From the IMG/VR virus record IMGVR_UViG_3300050343_000285, positions 124,001-188,000 of that record: DNA of 64,000 bases. One strand, given 5' to 3'. Under the pieces are notes generated by a model that worked only from the letters and a program-made list of their open reading frames with translations, made no database searches and was not told where the DNA came from. This document shows positions 12,003 to 27,844 of the stretch, piece after piece (position 1 is the first letter of the stretch; every line of letters starts with the position of its first letter). Both the position numbers and the translations under genes were made by a program. The stretch is from a virus.

Positions 12003-12908
12003 TTAAATAATTGGATTTATTATTCCATACCCTTGATATTTCTTAGTTTTAAATTTTTCATTTTTTATATCAATAGCGTGTTTTTTTAGAATATCATATA
12101 ATGCTTTTTTATCTAACTTTTGATTGTATTTTTGCTTATAATAAGACATATAAAGAGCAGCTACACCAGCAGCGAAAGGATTACTCATGCTAGTACCACT
12201 CATTAAAGCATATTTACCACCTGGTATTATACTCATTATATTATGACCTGGAGCTAAAAAGTCAAGACTAGGACCACTGCATGTAAAATTAGTTCTATTT
12301 AGATTTTCATCTATAGCGCCTATACTAATTGTTTCTGGATATTTGGCAGGAAACATAATGTCTACACTGGGTCCAGAATTTCCTGCTGCACAGAATATTA
12401 TACAACCTTTATCAGAAGCTTTCTTAACAGCTCTTTTTACTAAAGGAGAAGAACCTCTTGAACCAAGTGACATAGTGATTATATCAACATTTTTTTTAGC
12501 AGCATAATTTACAGCCTTAGCAACATTAGTTAAATTTCCACTACCATTTTTATCTAAAGCTTTTAGCGCCAATATCTTTGCGTCGGGTGCTACACCAACC
12601 ATTCCTTTATTATTGTCGCAAGCTGCTATAGTACCAGCTACGTGAGATCCATGACTATTGTCGTCCATTGCGTCTTCTGTGTCGTTTATAAAATTATATT
12701 GACCATCTATATTACTTTTTATATCTGGGTGGTTAACATCGCAACCTGTGTCTATAACAGCCACTCTGATACCACGACCAGTACTCTTAATCCATTGCTT
12801 ATCTACATTGAATTTTGTAATCTCCCATCCTTTCATTTGAGGATCATAAGGAGAAAGACCAAAAAAATCTTCAGTTTTGAAAGGTAATAAAGAAACATTA
12901 TCTCGCAT
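12003..12908 (-). CDS. Subtilisin-like serine protease (S8)
   Basis: A complete peptidase S8 catalytic domain: Asp53 in VAVIDTGCDVNHPD, His86 in DNSHGSHVAGT, oxyanion Asn177 in AAGNSGP and Ser240 in MSGTSMSNPFAAG. At 301 residues it has no signal peptide and only about 45 residues before the domain, so it resembles intracellular or virion-associated subtilisins rather than secreted pro-enzymes. Its start overlaps the end of the trypsin-like gene by 11 bases, with GGAGC upstream. It could mature virion proteins or degrade host proteins. Confidence 0.92.
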   Translation of the reverse strand: MRDNVSLLPFKTEDFFGLSPYDPQMKGWEITKFNVDKQWIKSTGRGIRVAVIDTGCDVNHPDIKSNIDGQYNFINDTEDAMDDNSHGSHVAGTIAACDNNKGMVGVAPDAKILALKALDKNGSGNLTNVAKAVNYAAKKNVDIITMSLGSRGSSPLVKRAVKKASDKGCIIFCAAGNSGPSVDIMFPAKYPETISIGAIDENLNRTNFTCSGPSLDFLAPGHNIMSIIPGGKYALMSGTSMSNPFAAGVAALYMSYYKQKYNQKLDKKALYDILKKHAIDIKNEKFKTKKYQGYGIINPII

Positions 12909-14011: not shown

Positions 14012-15018
14012 TAGTCTAATATAGAAGCCGCTATCAAGGCATCCTTTAGATACTGAGTGCAGAGGGTCGTCTGCGTGCTTGACTTCTTCAATAGGTCCAG
14101 AGGAAACTCTGCTTCGAGTAATTTTTCATTCAGTTTTACTACATGTAACCGTCTGCTCTTGATGTACCACCAGCAACTACGATTCTAATTGGATGCTTTA
14201 AATTTAGGAAGGGCTTTATGCCCTGTAAAGCAGCCGATAGTTGTTTAGCTGTATATTCTATTAATCTTTCATAGTAAGAAGCTACTGCTCCAAGTACTGA
14301 TTATCATTAGGCTCTCCAACCTTAAAACCACCTGCCTCCTTCTCTACTTGAACAACACTGTCAGGTTCTCCTGTTGCTACAGCACTCATACGATCTACCC
14401 AATCCCCAGATTTTGTTGTGCTAAACACTACAGTAGGCTCACCATTAAGCATAACACATACATTTGTCATACCAGCTCCGCAACTGATCCCGATACCAGT
14501 ATAGTCACTAGATTCTAATTCTGCATAACATAATGCTTCCGCTTCGTTAATAGCTCTAGCATCATAACCAGTTTCTGCAAGTATAGTTGTAACTACATCT
14601 TCATGATATCCAACATCAAAATCATCATCTTCTTGATCAACTGGTTGAGCAGGAACGCAGAATACTAATTTTTCACCGGGTTCAGATGCTTGTCCGACTA
14701 CTTCTTTTAGTATATAAGCCAGAACTCTTTTGGCTTCTTTTTCTTTGACTGATACAACCCCTCGATACATAGGTCTTCTGGCAGCTTCGTTTCTTTCGAC
14801 TGCTTTTTCTATTGCGTCTTTACCGAGAAAAATAAATGAGCCATCAGTATCTTTGACGAATACTTTACCAGCCAGACCCTTTTCTATCATTTTTGTGGCG
14901 ATTGGAGTCGTTGGTTTGATTACATAAAAAGCATCTCTAAAATCTTTAAATTTATATTATCTCCTTCATAAGAAGATAAAACTATAAAACTTGTACCTAC
15001 ATCTAAGCCTTTACTCAT
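14011..15018 (-). CDS. Actin-like ATPase (ParM/StbA-type), several frame breaks
   Basis: From ATG 15018 to the stop at 14011-14013 the locus is 1008 bases (about 335 aa) but needs about four single-base shifts, near 14955, 14285, 14135 and 14095. Reading across them gives an ordered actin fold: phosphate-1 (GLDVGTSF), a long middle section with EAEALCYAELE, phosphate-2 (GIGISCGAGMTNVCV), and the adenosine loop (VVAGGTSRADGY), followed by PIEEVKHADDPLHSV and KGCLIAAS as in bacterial actins. Phage actins can position DNA or segregate plasmid-like prophages. The strong conservation across all breaks, plus a length divisible by three, favours sequencing error over a dead gene. Confidence 0.75.
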
Positions 15019-15350: not shown

Positions 15351-15363
15351 TATATAATACACT
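15351..15363 (-). promoter_or_regulatory. Late-type promoter-like box (GTGTATTATA)
   Basis: Minus strand AGTGTATTATATA, 29 bases before the start at 15322. It lies at the end of the NeuA gene, so it would start a transcript of the membrane protein, actin-like and HNH genes. Confidence 0.45.
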
Positions 15364-15997
15364 ATTTCAATAACTTGCTAATTAATTCTAAATCATCATA
15401 AGTATCTACCTGAAAACTCCTACGTATTGGCATCTCAACTATGCCAGTATTCCCATGATACCTAAGATTATTTTTTAGCAAGCTATCTTTAGTTGTTATA
15501 TATAAAGCCCCATTCTCTACCCAATTTTCTTTACATTGTTGTCTCATTGGTCTAGCATGAGGATTCCAGCCATCTGGTTTACCTTCTATTGTCCATCGAG
15601 GAATCCAATGTTCTTTATACGCACTGAATACGGAGTCATATTGACCCATCATCTCTATACCCTTATTTATATCTTCTGGTAGTAATAGGGGAGATGTTGG
15701 CTGAATAAAAACTAATATATCAAATGCAAAAATTCTACAAAAATGTATCAATGCATCTTCACTTTTGCTTGTATCACCTGATATACTATCTGGCCTAATA
15801 ACTACTTTGGCTCCAGCATTTCTTGCGCATGACATAATATCTTCATCATTGGTACTAATAAATACATCGTTAGCTTTAGATTTCTGAGCAGCTTCTATCG
15901 TGTATTGTATTAGAGGTTTACCATTGATATCAATAATATTTTTTTTTGGTATACCCTTGCTTCCACCTCTGGCGAGTATGACTGTTTTTATTTTCAT
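15362..15997 (-). CDS. neuA: CMP-sialic (acylneuraminate) acid cytidylyltransferase-like
   Basis: 211 residues, family-typical. ARGGSKGIPKKN near the N-terminus is the CTP-binding loop; INGKPLIQYTIEAA, FISTNDEDI, RPDSISGDTS and FIQPTSPLL follow in the order seen in NeuA/KdsB-type enzymes. It would activate a nonulosonic acid with CTP. With the NeuB fusion at 21632 and the epimerase at 19055 it forms a near-complete sialic-acid-type pathway. Its last base overlaps the WavE gene start. The exact sugar (Neu5Ac, legionaminic or pseudaminic) cannot be read from the sequence. Confidence 0.88.
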   Translation of the reverse strand: MKIKTVILARGGSKGIPKKNIIDINGKPLIQYTIEAAQKSKANDVFISTNDEDIMSCARNAGAKVVIRPDSISGDTSKSEDALIHFCRIFAFDILVFIQPTSPLLLPEDINKGIEMMGQYDSVFSAYKEHWIPRWTIEGKPDGWNPHARPMRQQCKENWVENGALYITTKDSLLKNNLRYHGNTGIVEMPIRRSFQVDTYDDLELISKLLK

Positions 15998-17060: not shown

Positions 17061-17683
17061 TTACTTCTTTCATGCAAGATAAAATCTTTATAATATATTG
17101 TTTTAATTTTTTCAATATTATCATTTGATATTAGAATATTTTCTGAAGATGACATATTAAGTTTAGGCATATTTCGATATACGTTAGAAATATTTTCAAT
17201 ATTAATAATTAATTGTTTTTTAAAAAACCAAAAAATATCGGGAATAAAATCACTTTGAAGAAAAAAATGATGAGGTTCTGATATAAAATTTAATTTAGAA
17301 AAATTATTTAATACTATATCACCTATATCTTCGATTATATTAATTTCATTATGTTTTATTTTAATAATATTCTTAAGCCATTCATGCCCATATTGTTTTC
17401 TTGTTCCATTCACAAAATAATGAGATAATAAAGATTTGAATCTTTTAATAGGATCTCTCGTTATGATCATACCTTCGTTATATATAGATAAATTTTGTTT
17501 TAATATCGGTATCTTATTTTTAAAATATTTCTTACATACGAAACTAGCATTTTTAGGCACTTCTACCCAAAGTGTTTTTGTTTGAAAACTTTTACATAAA
17601 CTCATATCCCATAGATACGTAAACTTGTTGCAGTAGGTGCAATTACATGAATTTAGATTTTTTATATCTGTACTTTTAATCAT
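17057..17683 (-). CDS. Sulfotransferase-like protein
   Basis: WVEVPKNASFVCKK fits the 5'-phosphosulfate loop of PAPS-dependent sulfotransferases, and IITRDPIKRFKSLLSHYF fits the 3'-phosphate motif with Arg and Ser. 208 residues. CNCTYCNK at the N-terminus looks like a small metal-binding knuckle not usual for the family. It ends at the GDPD gene and starts inside the HAD fusion gene. Confidence 0.7.
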   Translation of the reverse strand: MIKSTDIKNLNSCNCTYCNKFTYLWDMSLCKSFQTKTLWVEVPKNASFVCKKYFKNKIPILKQNLSIYNEGMIITRDPIKRFKSLLSHYFVNGTRKQYGHEWLKNIIKIKHNEINIIEDIGDIVLNNFSKLNFISEPHHFFLQSDFIPDIFWFFKKQLIINIENISNVYRNMPKLNMSSSENILISNDNIEKIKTIYYKDFILHERSK

Positions 17684-19055
17684 TTGCCTGCTTGCGATCT
17701 ATAAAATTATTTAAGTCTTCTGGAGTGCCTATTCCCCACATTTTATCTACATGAAAAATAGATATTTTTTTATTATCAGCTATTGCTTCATTAAATACAG
17801 GACATACATAAAATTCATTATTATATCTTTTATTTAACTTAATCATTTGCTTAGCGTATTTAACATAATCTGAACCCTTTTTCCAATAGTAAACTCCTAC
17901 TGTTGCTATATTTGATATTGGGTTTTTTTCTGCTACTTCATTTACAAAACCAGTTTCTTTATCTATCTTAACAAAAGACCATTTAGGATGTGTTGATTCA
18001 AATGTTAATATGCCAGCATCTACATTTTGTTCTTGCATTTTATACATAAATTTGCTTGTATTCCATTCCACATATTGATCAGAGTTAGCTATAATTAGAG
18101 GATTGTCATTATCTATTTCTTTTTCTGCTAACAATGTGGTACACGCTGCCCCATCAGTGATACCATCAACTTCTATAACCTTAGGATTTTTTGTAATAAT
18201 ACTTAATAATGAATCTAAATTATATTTTAGTCTATGATTTTTTTGAACAATAAATATATGATTTGCTTTAAAGTTTAAATTATCTACAACTAACTGTATC
18301 ATTGGCTTATTGTCTATTTCTATTAGAGGTTTAGGGAAGGTATAGCCTGCTTGATCAAACCTACTACCTGCACCAGCCATAGGGATTAAAACATTTAGAT
18401 TAGTATCTTCCCATTTTATATTCTGTTTCATGATTGTATTCTCCGTTTTAATTTTTTTTGAAATATTTTCTATTGTAACTTCATCAGGGCTAGATACACG
18501 GTATACATTAGCTCCAGAAATTTCAGCAGCTTTTAATCCATTAGGGGAGTCTTCAACAATTAGGGTTTCATTTGGTACAGTTTTGAGGATTGACATAGCT
18601 TTCCAATAAATTTCAGGATGAGGCTTGGATGTGGATACATCTTCATTTGTTAAAATTAAATCAAAATACTCGATAACACCAATTTTTGATAGCATAGTAT
18701 ATACTGATCTTCTAATAGAATTAGAGCAACATGATATTTTATAATTTTGAGATAAATAATAAAAAACTTCAACTAACCTATTATCTTTATGTAAAGACTC
18801 GAATTTTTGCAAAGTTATACGTTGTTTAAGATCCCATATTTTTGTATGTAAATTTACTGTTAGTCCTCTGTTTTCTGTAAGTAGTTTTAATTTTTCATAA
18901 GTTTTCAATCCATCATATTTTCTATAATGATCTTGTTTTGATATAATATATTGCTCACCAGCTATGGTATATAAGGCTTCATTCAAAGCATCATAATGCA
19001 TATCCTTAGCTTTTACTAAAACCCCATCTAAGTCGAAAATAATATGCTTAATCAT
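17676..19055 (-). CDS. Fusion: HAD phosphatase plus sugar-phosphate nucleotidyltransferase
   Basis: 459 residues in two domains. Residues 1-205 are a HAD hydrolase of the beta-phosphoglucomutase/phosphatase type: nucleophile FDLDGVLV, SCCSNS and a VEDSPNGLKAA loop. Residues 220-455 are an NTP_transferase domain: LIPMAGAGSRF (nucleotide loop), FPKPLIEIDNKPMI, then IANSDQYVEW for metal binding. The pair could dephosphorylate one sugar intermediate and activate another in the same nonulosonic or heptose route. Overlap of the last 8 bases with the sulfotransferase gene shows translational coupling. Confidence 0.85.
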   Translation of the reverse strand: MIKHIIFDLDGVLVKAKDMHYDALNEALYTIAGEQYIISKQDHYRKYDGLKTYEKLKLLTENRGLTVNLHTKIWDLKQRITLQKFESLHKDNRLVEVFYYLSQNYKISCCSNSIRRSVYTMLSKIGVIEYFDLILTNEDVSTSKPHPEIYWKAMSILKTVPNETLIVEDSPNGLKAAEISGANVYRVSSPDEVTIENISKKIKTENTIMKQNIKWEDTNLNVLIPMAGAGSRFDQAGYTFPKPLIEIDNKPMIQLVVDNLNFKANHIFIVQKNHRLKYNLDSLLSIITKNPKVIEVDGITDGAACTTLLAEKEIDNDNPLIIANSDQYVEWNTSKFMYKMQEQNVDAGILTFESTHPKWSFVKIDKETGFVNEVAEKNPISNIATVGVYYWKKGSDYVKYAKQMIKLNKRYNNEFYVCPVFNEAIADNKKISIFHVDKMWGIGTPEDLNNFIDRKQAND

Positions 19056-20047
19056 TATAATTTTTTCTTTAGTATATTTAATATTTTATCGCAAGAGTTG
19101 CCATCACCATATGGGCAAGATTCATTTACTATTTCTATTTTGGTGTTTTTAAAAATTTTATACAAATCCTTTGGAGATTGACACAGTGTAGAGAACGTCC
19201 CAAGACCTTCTTTTCTTTCAGTTGTTGTCCGACAAACTATACTCTTTTTTTGCAAAAATGAAGACTCTTCTTGAAGGCCCCCGCTATCAGTTATTAATAT
19301 ACTACATTTAGCAATTATATCTATACATTTATTATAAGACAAAGGATCTATTACTTTAACGTTTTTGAATACATATTTATATTTTTGTATTTTATTATTT
19401 GGATGCATAGGAAAAATAAATTCTAAATTTTTATACATAGTTGCTATGTCCTCAATAGCTACAAACCAGTCTTTAATTATTTTTAAATTTTCTCTCCTAT
19501 GTAATGTTATTAAAACCTTGTTTTCTAAAGTTGGTTGAATATTTTTTAAATTATCTAAAACTGTGTTACCAACTAAATAAGTTTCGCCAGAATGATAAGA
19601 CTTTATATTATTTAAATTTTCTTGAGTTGGGCATAGATGTATATCTGCCATATTGCTAATAGCAATTCTATTAAACTCTTCTGGATAGGGATGATTAATA
19701 TTTCCTGATCTAAGTCCAGCTTCTAAATGTATAATTGGTATTTGTCTATGAAATGAGGATAAAGCTACAGCAAAAGCAGAGGTTGTATCTCCTTGAATTA
19801 ATGTATGTGTAACATTGTGAAAAATTGGATTAATCTTACTTAGTATAGAAGATATTATTGAATCCAACCTGTTTGCTGAATTATCTATATTAATATATAT
19901 GGGGTTATATTCAGTAATAAATTTATCTATTAACTCGTTATGTTGCTTAATATATAATAGTTTATAATCAATATTATTTTTTATTTTGTCAATTAATGGT
20001 TTAATTTTTATCCATTCTGGTCTTGTCCCGAAAGCTATTAATAGCAT
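19055..20047 (-). CDS. UDP-N-acetylglucosamine 2-epimerase-like (WecB/NeuC type)
   Basis: 330 residues. It opens with IAFGTRPEWIKIKPLI, has HLEAGLRSG with PEEFNR about ten residues later, a TLHRRENL segment and ITDSGGLQEESS near the C-terminus; all are hallmarks of the UDP-GlcNAc 2-epimerase family. It makes UDP-ManNAc, or ManNAc in the hydrolysing NeuC subtype, the precursor for NeuB. Placed between the HAD/nucleotidyltransferase fusion and glycosyltransferases upstream. The NeuC versus WecB choice cannot be settled by eye. Confidence 0.88.
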   Translation of the reverse strand: MLLIAFGTRPEWIKIKPLIDKIKNNIDYKLLYIKQHNELIDKFITEYNPIYINIDNSANRLDSIISSILSKINPIFHNVTHTLIQGDTTSAFAVALSSFHRQIPIIHLEAGLRSGNINHPYPEEFNRIAISNMADIHLCPTQENLNNIKSYHSGETYLVGNTVLDNLKNIQPTLENKVLITLHRRENLKIIKDWFVAIEDIATMYKNLEFIFPMHPNNKIQKYKYVFKNVKVIDPLSYNKCIDIIAKCSILITDSGGLQEESSFLQKKSIVCRTTTERKEGLGTFSTLCQSPKDLYKIFKNTKIEIVNESCPYGDGNSCDKILNILKKKL

Positions 20048-20059
20048 AATTTTAAACCT

Positions 20060-20797
20060 TTATTCTATATTTTTTACTGTATTCCACCCGTTATCAATAG
20101 CATGTTCTACGCAAAGATTTCTTTGACTAAAAAAGGTCTTGTGAGACACTACTGTATTTTTACTAGTTGCAACTCTGTCTCCACCCAGCTTAATAGGTTC
20201 CAAAGATCCATGCAGAGACTTATCATTTTTAGGATGAGGAGGGCAGTAAGTATTAATTTTACCAAATTTTTGAGCCAAATATGAAAACTGTATATCTTCT
20301 CCGTTATCTAACATAAAAGGTTTTTCAAACCACATATATTTCAACCATTCACTTTTAAAAAACCATGCATGACCTACTAAATCAACTCTTTGTATCTCCG
20401 TATTCAAACTGGGCCACCCAGCTCTAGTATGATTTCTATATACTCTAGAATTTAAAATTACACCAGCAGATCCTAATATACCGTTACATTGATTTATAGA
20501 ACTTAAACAATTTTCAAACCATCTTTTTCCAGGAATTGTGTCATCATCAAATACTGCTATATAATCACTTTGTGATAAGAGGGCAGCAGAAAACCTACCA
20601 TAAAACTTCCAATTAAAATTATTATCAAATGTTTTATCAACATCAAAACTCTTTAAGTCTACTTGCTCATTATCCTGATGTAGATTTCTCCATAACCAAA
20701 TATCTGTTGTTTTAATTGTTTGATTCCTAATTGATTCTATTTGTTTTTTAAGATTTTGAGGTCTTCTGTATAAATTTAATATAGTTGTTATAGTCAT
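20060..20797 (-). CDS. Family 2-like glycosyltransferase
   Basis: TTILNLYRRPQNLKKQIESI opens a GT-A fold. The metal/donor motif is AVFDDDTIPGKRW near residue 82, and GNGEDIQFSYL-like residues (DNGEDIQ) form the acceptor region. 245 residues. It overlaps the GT4-like gene upstream by 4 bases. Donor and acceptor unknown. Confidence 0.8.
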   Translation of the reverse strand: MTITTILNLYRRPQNLKKQIESIRNQTIKTTDIWLWRNLHQDNEQVDLKSFDVDKTFDNNFNWKFYGRFSAALLSQSDYIAVFDDDTIPGKRWFENCLSSINQCNGILGSAGVILNSRVYRNHTRAGWPSLNTEIQRVDLVGHAWFFKSEWLKYMWFEKPFMLDNGEDIQFSYLAQKFGKINTYCPPHPKNDKSLHGSLEPIKLGGDRVATSKNTVVSHKTFFSQRNLCVEHAIDNGWNTVKNIE

Positions 20798-21651
20798 AAG
20801 CTTTTGTATATTTCTATATATTCTTCTGCAATATCAATTGGATTCCAGTATTTCTTCATCCACTCTCTAGAATTAACTCCTTTTTGCATAATATAATCTA
20901 TACCTTTATTTTCAACCAAGTTTATTAATACGTTCTCTAGCTCTTGTATTGAACACGACAGGAATGGGTGTCCATCCGACTTGGCTACATTTTTTATTAC
21001 CTTATCAACCCCATCGCTTATTTTACATATAGTCAAACACCCCAAGGATAAACCCTCTAATCCAGATCTATGATATGATCCTGTCATCACTTCGTCTATA
21101 ATTATATTGCATAAAGATTTTCTCTGCCTACACTCTCTGTAACCGATTCCATGAATCACATCTATATCAATTTTTTCTTTGTATTTTTCTTTAAGTTTTT
21201 GCAAAATTGTCGTTGTTTGCCTGTACCCTTTATTATACCATCCTCTATCTTTTTTATTAGATGGTGAATATCCTATTTTTATTTTCTTGTCGTAATATTT
21301 TGGAATATTCATGTCTTCCCAGAGGTCTATTGGATTTCTAACTATTGTACAGTTTTTATATTCTGGTAGTGTGGCATGATACTGTGCTATTACGGCTTTG
21401 GGTATTGCAACGCTTAGATCAACCCTAAATGGTTCGCTGTGATATTGAATAAGTCTTGGTAATTTACTGCTATTAAACATATTTCTATTATGTAAATGAA
21501 TGATATCTAAATATTGTAATAAATTAGTTTTTTCACTTGCATAACCATAACCAAATACACTAGCTTCATGATCTGTATATTTATTTATAATATTAGAAAT
21601 AGCTTCTGGAGCATTAGACAACCCTGTTTGTTTATAGTGTGCTATTTTCAT
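20794..21651 (-). CDS. GT-B glycosyltransferase (GT4-like)
   Basis: The N-terminal half has IHLHNR and QYHSEP and the linker IVRNPIDLWED. The C-terminal half has IGYSPSNKKDRGW and the acidic donor site region EVMTGSYHRSGLEGLSLG, followed by a C-terminal amphipathic helix. This order is typical of GT4-type retaining enzymes. Start at 21651 overlaps the end of the NeuB fusion by 20 bases. Confidence 0.8.
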   Translation of the reverse strand: MKIAHYKQTGLSNAPEAISNIINKYTDHEASVFGYGYASEKTNLLQYLDIIHLHNRNMFNSSKLPRLIQYHSEPFRVDLSVAIPKAVIAQYHATLPEYKNCTIVRNPIDLWEDMNIPKYYDKKIKIGYSPSNKKDRGWYNKGYRQTTTILQKLKEKYKEKIDIDVIHGIGYRECRQRKSLCNIIIDEVMTGSYHRSGLEGLSLGCLTICKISDGVDKVIKNVAKSDGHPFLSCSIQELENVLINLVENKGIDYIMQKGVNSREWMKKYWNPIDIAEEYIEIYKSL

Positions 21652-23156
21652 TTTTTTGTTTTTGAAAAAAATATACAGTATCTATGGAATCTACTAGAGT
21701 AAAACCATAGCTTTTAATCTTATTGATACACTTTTCTTTAAATTTTTTATCTTTCATTAAAAACTGATGTATTTCTATAAGTATCTTGTTACAATTTTGT
21801 ATCACATGAGCGTTTTCCTCTAAAAAAATTAACTCACCACCTTCACAATCTATATTCATGCAGTTAATATTTTCTATATTTTTTTATACTACTTAATTTA
21901 ATACATTCTAAATTATAATCTCTTCTGGTTTTTGCGAAATTTCTACCATTATCAACTCGATCAGCTGACCCAGCAACTATCAAATTATAAGTCTGAAAAT
22001 TAACTATATCTAATGTTTGCGAAATATAACCAAATACCAAGTCTACATTTTTTATATTGTTCTCTTGCATTGTCTTCTGTAATGACTCTTTGAGTTCTGG
22101 ATTGGCTTCCACAGATATGACATGCTTACATTTTCTTGATAATCTTAGAGTAGTAATACCTAAACATGATCCAATCTCTAAAACATTATCCTTTTTATTT
22201 AAATATTTATTAATTAAACATAATTCTGTTTTTTCATATATTTTATTACGAAATCTTTGCATTAGTTCTGGTATGCAATATCTCTTTGGTATAAATATTT
22301 TATTATTTAGATAATTCACGGATTGTATATCTTTTTGTTTTCTTAAACTTTCTCTTTTGATTTTTTCCCCATCTAGTAAAATCCTCGAAGCTGCTGGCTG
22401 GCTCATACTAGATTCAACATCTCTAATACCTTTTACTAATTTAAATAATCCAGCAGGCTCAAGACTCGATAAATGGTCACTACCCCACATATTATGATTA
22501 AGAGTAATGTGCCTTTCGACCCATTCAGCACCTAGAGCCACTGAAGCAAAAGTAGATACTAAGCCATACTCATGACCACTATAGCCTATCTGTCTTGTAG
22601 GCCATCTTTTTTTCAGCCATTTGATATAGTTAAGATTAATTTCATTTACTGGACAAGGATACGTGCTATTTGTATGCATAACAACATCAGCATCGCACGA
22701 GTATATACAGTCTTCTATTTCTTTTTCTGTACTCATACCAGTAGATATTATTAAAGTATTAAACTTTTTTTTAGAATGAACACAAAGATCCCTATCTGTA
22801 ATAACAGCAGAAGGTATTTTTGCAATATTTACATATTTGCTCATTAAATCTGCACTAGGAATATCCCAAACACTAGCAAACATTTTAATATTTTGGCTTT
22901 TAGCATAGTCTATCAATTCAACAATTTGCTCTTCATTAAATTCAATTTTTTCTTTATACTCAAGATATGTCATATCCCCCCAAGGTGTTGATCGCATCTT
23001 GGTCTTTTGGTCTTCTGGAACACAAATGCTTGGCGTTCTTTTTTGAATTTTTACATAATCACAGCCAGAAGCACTAGATATATTAATGAGTTTTTTACAG
23101 GTGTCGATAGAGCCATTGTGGTTGATCCCTATTTCCGCTATAATCTTGGTTTTCAA
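21632..23156 (-). CDS. neuB: Fusion: NeuB-type sialic acid synthase plus FkbM-type methyltransferase (one frameshift)
   Basis: Residues 1-270 form the NeuB TIM barrel: IIAEIGINHNGS, KIQKRTP, MFASVWD, IISTGMST, HTNSTYP, GYSGHE and VERHITL, with all usual blocks. It condenses phosphoenolpyruvate with a mannosamine-type sugar. The usual C-terminal antifreeze/SAF domain is missing. Instead residues from about 290 carry an FkbM methyltransferase: VLEIGSCLGITTL (SAM motif I), VISVEANPE, then, after a slip in a run of seven A (plus 21879-21885), MNIDCEGGELIFLE. Length is a multiple of three plus one, so one base is in question. The shift may be an error, or a natural slip giving a short and a long product. 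Confidence 0.85.
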
Positions 23157-25222: not shown

Positions 25223-25978
25223 TTAATTATCTAAATGTGTTTGGTGATCTTTAAATTTATTGCCATATACATCCTCACCATTATGATATCTACGACCATT
25301 ACCGTTTTTTTTGTATTTATCTAAATTACCTCTCTCATCCCCATGCTCTAATCCACATTTCATTTCTGCTTCAAGTTGTTCATTTGATAATATGTCTGCT
25401 GAATCTTTTATTTCAAACTTATCTATAAAATGTCTAGGATATGGTATAACACAACCTACTATATCTCCTTTAGATATTCTTATCTTATGATTAGGTCTAG
25501 TAATTCTAATATTATATGTAAAATCTCTTCTAAGATTATCTGTTTCAACTACTCCCGTCATGTGATATAAGCCGTCAATAAAAGTATTAGGAGGATTGAT
25601 GGTCATTAAATTAACGCCATCTGGAGTACGCAAAGAGAATGTTGTTTGTATCGTAATTGTACCCATGCCGAAATGACTGCTGATAGATTGTAATATTTTA
25701 TTTTTTTTAAAATCTTCAGGATCTAAATAAGTTACTTCTACATCGCTAGGACTATCTCCACCATTCCATATAACTTCTATATCATGTATGCTTTTTAATA
25801 TAAAACCATGCTGATTGCCCATAACTAAAGGTAAACAAAAATACGCATGTTTAACAAACCAATCACGTTTAAAATCCCCTTTAAGAGAAGCATATAATTT
25901 ATCAATATTCTCTTTAGTTTGAAACTCACGGGCATGTGCTATTAAACCTATTGTATTTTCTTTTATTAATTTGCTCAT
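25223..25978 (-). CDS. DUF6065-like protein
   Basis: 251 residues. CLPLVMGNQHGFILKS, IEVIWNG, FGMGTITIQTTFSLRTPDGVNL and INPPNTFIDGLYHMTGVVET resemble DUF6065, a family of unknown function often found next to 2OG oxygenases in phages and marine bacteria. The C-terminal 50 residues are Lys/Gly/Asn-rich and probably disordered. It directly precedes the oxygenase. Confidence 0.6.
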   Translation of the reverse strand: MSKLIKENTIGLIAHAREFQTKENIDKLYASLKGDFKRDWFVKHAYFCLPLVMGNQHGFILKSIHDIEVIWNGGDSPSDVEVTYLDPEDFKKNKILQSISSHFGMGTITIQTTFSLRTPDGVNLMTINPPNTFIDGLYHMTGVVETDNLRRDFTYNIRITRPNHKIRISKGDIVGCVIPYPRHFIDKFEIKDSADILSNEQLEAEMKCGLEHGDERGNLDKYKKNGNGRRYHNGEDVYGNKFKDHQTHLDN

Positions 25979-27844
25979 TCCAATCTCATTATTCTGTTCA
26001 CTGGTATAGTTTTAGTATTTACTTCTTCCTTGTATCTTTCTTTCATCCATTTAGTTTTCAGTCTATCTGGAACCATCATAAACCCAAAATAAGCAAGATA
26101 ATGTAAAATACTGGCTTTGGTATAAAAACTCAATACATCGTTTTCGTCTAATGATATTTCAGAAGCACCACTACCATATATAATATCTGGGCCATGAATA
26201 TCATCAAGTTCTACTCCAGAGTTATTTAAAAACCATTAACATAGAATATTGGTCTGATAAATGATCAAACCATTTGTAATCTTTTTCGTTTAGTACTTCT
26301 TTTGCTTTTTTTAATAGTTTTTTTCTTTCTATCTTAATCTTATTGCTAAAATCTTTAATTTTTTCGTGATATATTTTACTGGGTAAGATAATTTGGCCCC
26401 CATTGATTCCGTTACCTCCTAAGACCTTTTTAATTGTTTCGTCGCTCCCCTCGCCTATTACATAAGCACAATCATTTCTATTATATTTATTAAACATATA
26501 CGCTGGATTTTTAGTAAAGATAATATCACTATCTATAACAAATACTTTATCATAGTCAAAATTTGCAAAGAGATGATCCATAGTATTCCATTTAAAAAAG
26601 AAGACATCGCTATTCGTCTCTCTGTTAAAATCAAACTCTATAAAATTAACATCTGGAAAATCTAAAAATAAATTTTCATCACCTTCAAAAACTTTAGTGC
26701 TTTTTAAATCATTTTTTTGTTTATTATAATATACAACTATATCGAATTGTTTTTCTGTTTTATATGAAGTTTTATATAGTGTTTCTAAAGCATAATAAAG
26801 CATACAATAATATTTCATATTATTATCATTATAATCATCAAGAAATAATGCGAAAACGATTGCTCTTGTCTCAACTACATCTCCCACTACTTCACTTGGG
26901 TCTTTAACAAATAAGTTTTGCCAATATTTATTCGGATTATTAATTTTATTTATTTTCAATTTCCAATTTTTAGCGCATTCTATTAATTCATTGTTTCTTA
27001 AATATTTAGGGAGCATGAAACAGGAATGACCAGCAGAATAGTGTACGATACACGTTTTAATATTGTCTATTACGATATCATTATTTTTAACAGAGACATC
27101 ATAAACTGTATTATCTGACTCTAAATTAGAACGAGATGGCGTAGTAAAATCTTCTACTTCTAAATCTCCAAAGTCTTTACTATTTTTAGTTAATATATTT
27201 TGACCACAATATTGCTCATTAAAGAATGTAAAATTATTATATTTATCAAGAGTAATTTCTTTTTTATTTAATAACTTTTTTGCTGCTTTATTGAGTCTAA
27301 TTCTTTCTTTAACAACATCTTTATAGAAATTATTTGCATCTTTATGAAACTTTTTAGGTATTAATAGTTGACCGCTACCCATAGGTGATAATGTGGGGCA
27401 CACCTGTGTTGCTGTATCATCCCAAAGACCATAACCATATATTTTTTTATTATCATATTTATTAAAAATATAATTTGGATTTTTATAGAAAATAACGTCA
27501 CTGTCTATTAAGAAAATCTTATCGTAGTCATACTTGAATACATTTTCTAGATTATGCCATTTGCTCATCCAAGGAGTATTGACACCATTAGGGTCTGTTT
27601 CTATTGTGTACTTTTTATCATAAGTGCTTTCTGTTAATATAAATTTATTTTTAAATTCATTATATATACTATATTCTTCTAAATATTTATATTTTTTAAA
27701 ATCAGGAAATGTATAATATACTCTAACATCAAATGACTCATCATATAAATTATCTAATGTTTTTAATGCATAGTAAAGCATTGCGTAGTATGTTGAATTT
27801 TGATTTAAGCAACATATCGAAAAATACAAACAGTTATTATTCAT
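25975..27844 (-). CDS. Tandem GT-A glycosyltransferase with two related catalytic domains (one frameshift)
   Basis: The start at 27844 (MNNNCLYFSICCLNQ) leaves an 8-base overlap with the previous gene. Two halves are paralogous. The first has YYAMLYYALKTLDNL and KIFLIDSDVIFYKNP; the second has YYCMLYYALETLYK and KVFVIDSDIIFTKNPAYMFNKY. Each holds a DSD metal site as in GT8/glycogenin-type folds. The frame stops at 26222, but after a slip in a T5 run it continues as FLNNSGVELDDIHGPDIIYG to the stop at 25975, completing the second domain. About 623 residues. Such bidomain enzymes often polymerise an alternating sugar chain. Confidence 0.78.

Follow-up and report, generated by a model that had tools for sequence, protein, structure and literature searches.

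A SAF-less NeuB synthase joined to an FkbM-family methyltransferase in a marine phage, probably by loss of a stop codon

In a marine phage, a synthase of the NeuB family that lacks the SAF domain is joined at its C-terminus to an FkbM-family methyltransferase. We put the probability at roughly three in four that loss of a stop codon joined these two genes of a phage surface-sugar cluster, that one protein of ~507 residues is made, and that a frame break seen within the gene is a homopolymer error. The gene lies on the minus strand of the window, the 64,000-nucleotide stretch analyzed here, which is part of an IMG/VR record of 194,787 bases. Since rIIA-like, rIIB-like, thymidylate synthase, and DNA polymerase clamp loader genes are present among the open reading frames (ORFs) of the record, the source virus is most likely a T4-like tailed phage. 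A sequence-only reading of this DNA had placed at positions 21632-23156 a NeuB synthase without a SAF domain, followed after a frame break by an FkbM methyltransferase, and this arrangement was found as described. The fusion stood as well, as an in-frame gene in a second contig; two interpretations attached to it, namely, that the methyltransferase replaces the SAF domain and that a frame slip gives two products, did not.

The two halves and the broken reading frame

The ORF at 21864-23156 (minus strand) encodes 430 amino acids (aa) from a TTG start with AAGGAG upstream. Its first ~253 residues were matched by the Pfam NeuB family (PF03102) over profile positions 1-238 of 241 (E 1.1e-59; 202 bits against a cut-off of 22.1), in line with the earlier claim that the NeuB barrel is complete. 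This NeuB half, comprising residues 1-273 (22338..23156, minus strand), was assigned to a SAF-less subfamily from the Pfam match, its relatives, and Foldseek, and stand-alone viral NeuBs with the same end point are 49-82% identical to it. In two AlphaFold runs, the pLDDT of the NeuB half was mostly >90, and a Foldseek search with the first model returned NeuB crystal structures as the top matches, followed by DAH7P and KDO8P synthases. Scores were far below the cut-offs for both the canonical NeuB equivalog (NeuB_NnaB, TIGR03569; 199.8 against 399.65 bits) and the PseI equivalog (NCBIfam; 146.5 against 340.25 bits).

The methyltransferase begins after residue 273. In the second contig, IMGVR_UViG_3300020438_004933 (locus L002), NeuB and FkbM form a single uninterrupted frame of 507 aa, and this copy passed the curated cut-offs of PF05050 (35.2 against 22.7 bits) and TIGR01444 (57.7 against 37.7 bits), confirming that an FkbM methyltransferase follows NeuB. 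The FkbM half occupies residues 280-507 of the L002 copy; in the window (21632..22319, minus strand) it is interrupted, and its C-terminus, with the motif NIDCEGGE, lies in another frame that extends to 21632. A D-x-EG-x-E motif is common to the fused half and the FkbM family (PF05050, TIGR01444). The methyltransferase half of the AlphaFold models was unusable in both runs (pLDDT mostly <60), probably because it has too few relatives. No similar methyltransferase was found in 50,697 phage records, and the nearest stand-alone FkbM copies found were only 22-32% identical to the fused one, with 29% identity over 234 columns for the closest (L087). Because the seed of an iterated profile search for the methyltransferase included the fusion, the search strayed into NeuB once two rounds were complete, and what followed was disregarded.

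The frame is broken at a run of seven A (21879..21885, minus strand), after which the window frame terminates at 21864; the run is one base shorter in L002, where the frame is open. The two contigs are 99.89% identical: across 13,280 bases (13.28 kb), they differ by 10 mismatches and five single-base indels. All five indels are one additional A or T in a homopolymer of the window, the other four sites being at 26228, 25055, 24971, and 23548, and each insertion disrupts an ORF whose L002 counterpart is intact. ORFs of 645, 507, and 370 aa in L002 thus correspond to 563, 430+75, and 269+88 aa in the window, while a 185-aa L002 ORF is broken by two of the five indels. The two products proposed in the sequence-only reading would be the full fusion and a NeuB whose methyltransferase is cut short, made by programmed frameshifting or transcript slippage at the A7 run, and it is true that such runs are generally slippery and that both frames are present. 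However, the L002 frame is open, the same type of insertion accounts for every indel and disrupts several unrelated genes, and the shorter product would lack the DxEGxE portion of its methyltransferase, all of which makes slippage very improbable. Judged from the comparison with L002, the apparent frame break almost certainly reflects faulty sequencing or assembly of a homopolymer, since five programmed frameshifts in 13 kb, with none in the near-identical contig, would be implausible. Given such an error, the virus would make one protein, and a single polypeptide of 507 residues is most likely what is produced. Homopolymers in the window record should be regarded as prone to error; more generally, homopolymer errors in a viral contig can mimic programmed frameshifts.

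NeuB synthases without a SAF domain

The SAF domain (PF08666) had been reported missing, and indeed no match to it was found in the fusion protein or anywhere in the 195-kb record; nor was a SAF gene in trans found in 15 related phage records. Among the best 80 loci per scan, all 79 other viral NeuB loci were SAF-less, stand-alone, closed ORFs, which stop 267–288 residues past the match start at the motif E...SLRK/G. The nearest cellular relatives were also SAF-less in 80 of 80 cases (best 80 loci), with a length of 270–289 aa and the same LR tail, and they come from Hymenobacter and other Bacteroidota, Chloroflexota, Marinimicrobia, Woesearchaeota, Thermoplasmatales, and others. When scored with a phage-NeuB profile, SAF-less members lay above about 329 bits and SAF-bearing NeuBs at or below 202 bits, with the window protein at 498 bits. 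In a 296-genome sample of Hymenobacter's phylum, the NeuB frames split into a longer and a shorter class. The structure of a SAF-less NeuB of 290 aa from Leptospira has been solved (6NCS), and the SAF-less profile reaches its end. NeuB length, the E...LR tail, and the lack of SAF are therefore features that the window protein has in common with 6NCS and with the SAF-less NeuBs of Bacteroidota, Chloroflexota, Marinimicrobia, archaea, and phages; whereas these stop at residue ~270-289, the window protein runs on into FkbM. Across the SAF-less NeuBs of loci L014-L092 and L095-L174, the tryptophan of a TPWG motif is invariant, the E...LR tail is present, and scores fall far below the NCBIfam NeuB and PseI cut-offs.

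Forty-five SAF-less NeuBs, including the window protein, were aligned, and the positions equivalent to those of the Neisseria meningitidis enzyme (Nme) were taken from the alignment. The equivalents of Nme E25, K53, Q55, K129, Y186, S213, H215, E234, H236, and D247 are identical in all 45 sequences. The roles of these residues in binding phosphoenolpyruvate (PEP) or metal and in catalysis follow PMC6795526 and what is generally known of NeuB. E25, Q55, K129, Y186, S213, H215, and E234 appear in a published list of active-site residues of the N. meningitidis enzyme (PMC6795526). Relative to Nme, the SAF-less NeuBs carry T110 to S and F112 to W replacements, as well as an invariant W for N74 and an invariant S for N184; W59 (in the TPWG motif), E264, L271, and R272 are also invariant (45/45). 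In the N. meningitidis enzyme, the SAF domain provides an essential arginine, Arg314, which contacts ManNAc, and the R314A variant is inactive (PMC6795526). An equivalent of Arg314 is absent from the SAF-less NeuBs, which possess a C-terminal tail with the invariant E264 and L271–R272, and they must therefore bind the sugar otherwise or use another sugar. The window protein thus has the barrel fold and the PEP, metal, and catalytic residues in common with NeuB/PseI/LegI synthases (PF03102; N. meningitidis 1XUU and Campylobacter jejuni PseI 8H2C), but differs from them in lacking SAF and the Arg314 equivalent and in the replacements of N74 (W) and N184 (S).

These observations bear on the proposal that the methyltransferase occupies the SAF position and closes the active site of the partner subunit. 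FkbM is joined where SAF begins in canonical NeuB, and the arginine that SAF places there is essential in N. meningitidis (PMC6795526). On the other hand, stand-alone members of the subfamily carry no domain at this position, 6NCS was solved without one, FkbM elsewhere is a free protein, and the sugar-side changes at N74 and N184 are subfamily-wide, as expected if SAF is unused. We consider this proposal exceedingly unlikely. The fusion boundary coincides with the end of the stand-alone proteins, and since phage and cellular relatives that stand alone are SAF-less too, SAF absence is, by the sequence evidence, the normal state of the subfamily and unrelated to FkbM.

The fusion junction and its origin

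Where the relatives end (...SLRK, then a stop), the fusion has a CAA codon (Q274; 22335..22337, minus strand), which is one substitution from TAA. Six codons past the NeuB end lies a GTG (V280; 22317..22319, minus strand), a possible former FkbM start, whose aligned residue in the stand-alone FkbM of L087 is V3; that protein begins only a few residues from the fusion point. Unfused pairs of the two genes were found in other contigs. In L045 and L046, NeuB, stop, and FkbM are arranged as TAA G ATG, the NeuB of L045 ending in AAA TAA, with a single base (G) before the separate FkbM ATG. In L031, the NeuB stop TGA overlaps the ATG of an FkbM gene (identified by Pfam), and L033 has the same gene order. 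FkbM thus stands alone beside a SAF-less NeuB in these four loci, whereas in the window it is joined to the NeuB C-terminus. L045 and L046 were also considered as further copies of the fusion, as a tblastn match spans both halves, and were rejected owing to the stop codon and separate ATG.

Together, the unfused pairs, the CAA at the stop position, and the nearby GTG make the joining of in-frame neighbor genes by loss of the NeuB stop the simplest history, and this event was probably recent. In the nearest relative of the NeuB half (L014/L015, 82% identity), the NeuB gene has a normal end and the gene after it is a different one, which suggests that the NeuB–FkbM pairing in the window lineage probably arose by gene shuffling. 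An alternative is that the joining CAA is an artifact, from assembly or a wrong base, and that NeuB and FkbM are two genes: a single substitution would restore TAA, and the window does have sequencing or assembly errors. However, the CAA and the in-frame spacer are present in both contigs, and the errors seen are homopolymer indels, not substitutions, leaving this explanation very doubtful.

The stop loss could also have been neutral, with the methyltransferase freed by initiation at the GTG (22319) or by proteolysis and the fused form lacking a function of its own. The linker of only ~6 residues comes from what was once an intergenic stretch, the GTG is aligned close to where the L087 FkbM starts, and the fusion was found in one virus only among the best 80 loci per scan; but no clear Shine-Dalgarno sequence precedes the GTG, and both contigs keep the fused frame. 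We regard a neutral stop loss as unlikely, although it deserves some weight. On the preferred reading, in which stop loss gave rise to one ~507-residue protein, the fusion is a clear case of stop-codon loss joining adjacent pathway genes in a phage.

The NeuB–FkbM fusion is carried by only two nearly identical contigs, the window and L002. The queries run against viral contigs were the complete ORF, its methyltransferase half, alignments of NeuB, and patterns matching the junction exactly, and L002 was the only further fusion among the best 80 loci per scan; rarer or more distant ones may lie beyond these. None was found among the 80 nearest cellular relatives or in phage records, and no description was found in the consulted passages of the literature on NeuB with FkbM. 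Several other NeuB fusions were encountered. In L150, L159, L168, L169, and L191, from Sphingobacteriales and related Bacteroidota, Mucilaginibacter among them, a SAF-less NeuB is preceded by a fused HAD phosphatase; this fusion suggests that the SAF-less subfamily may make a 9-phosphate product, for which the Kdn route of Bacteroides, cited in PMC6200933, offers a parallel. L189 encodes a cytidylyltransferase-NeuB-SAF fusion, and in L187 and L188, from genomes of Hymenobacter's phylum, NeuB-SAF is fused to a xylose-isomerase-like barrel. NeuB/NeuA and NeuB/NeuD fusions have been reported in Fusobacterium (PMC4045943, Table 4). As in the present case, these fusions combine NeuB with a sugar-pathway enzyme; in contrast to the window, the partner is never a methyltransferase.

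Gene neighborhood and proposed function

The fusion lies among sugar genes, all on the minus strand. A family 2 glycosyltransferase (20060..20797; PF00535) belongs to the same gene run, as do a UDP-GlcNAc 2-epimerase of the non-hydrolysing, WecB type (NCBIfam; 19055..20047; PF02350, E 1.4e-63; TIGR00236, 236.9 against a cut-off of 210.15), a HAD phosphatase fused to a sugar-phosphate nucleotidyltransferase (17676..19055; PF13419, PF00483), and a NeuA/PseF-like CMP-sugar-acid cytidylyltransferase (15362..15997; PF02348, E 8.2e-26), whose top NCBIfam match, PseF, is below cut-off. Of the NeuC-NeuB-NeuA pathway genes, the cytidylyltransferase is present, and the epimerase is WecB-type rather than NeuC; since it is non-hydrolysing, it leaves the path to the NeuB substrate incomplete. 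The best reading of these sequence assignments is that the cluster makes and activates a nonulosonic acid. Next to phage SAF-less NeuBs in general, a cytidylyltransferase was the commonest neighbor (19 of 59 upstream and 11 of 64 downstream genes); FkbM accounted for 4 of the 64 genes directly downstream and other methyltransferases for several more, and family 29 sialyltransferase-like genes also occurred.

Three further proteins are encoded in the window: an actin-like protein inside the sugar cluster (14282-14890; Pfam Volactin match, E 1e-37), a complete subtilase-family peptidase (12003-12908; PF00082, E 1e-56), and a DUF6065 protein adjoining the sugar genes (25223-25978; E 3.6e-39).

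We infer catalytic activity, substrate, methylation target, and the use of the fusion to the phage as follows. The SAF-less NeuB half would condense a six-carbon sugar of the amino or hydroxy type, possibly as its 6-phosphate, with PEP to yield a nonulosonic acid. The FkbM half, predicted to depend on S-adenosylmethionine, would most likely O-methylate this acid or a glycan bearing it, the target being a guess from the gene neighborhood; PMC5109656 mentions methylated sugars of the legionaminic type on bacterial flagella. Joining the two halves would mainly set their stoichiometry and co-expression. It is a tentative possibility that the single polypeptide makes a nonulosonic acid independently of SAF and methylates it, providing a methylated, sialic-acid-like decoration of phage or host. 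If true, this would be a bifunctional enzyme not described before. The more useful point concerns the family: a large SAF-less NeuB subfamily, common to phages, Bacteroidota, Chloroflexota, and archaea, retains the barrel with its catalytic residues but not the SAF arginine that is essential in N. meningitidis.
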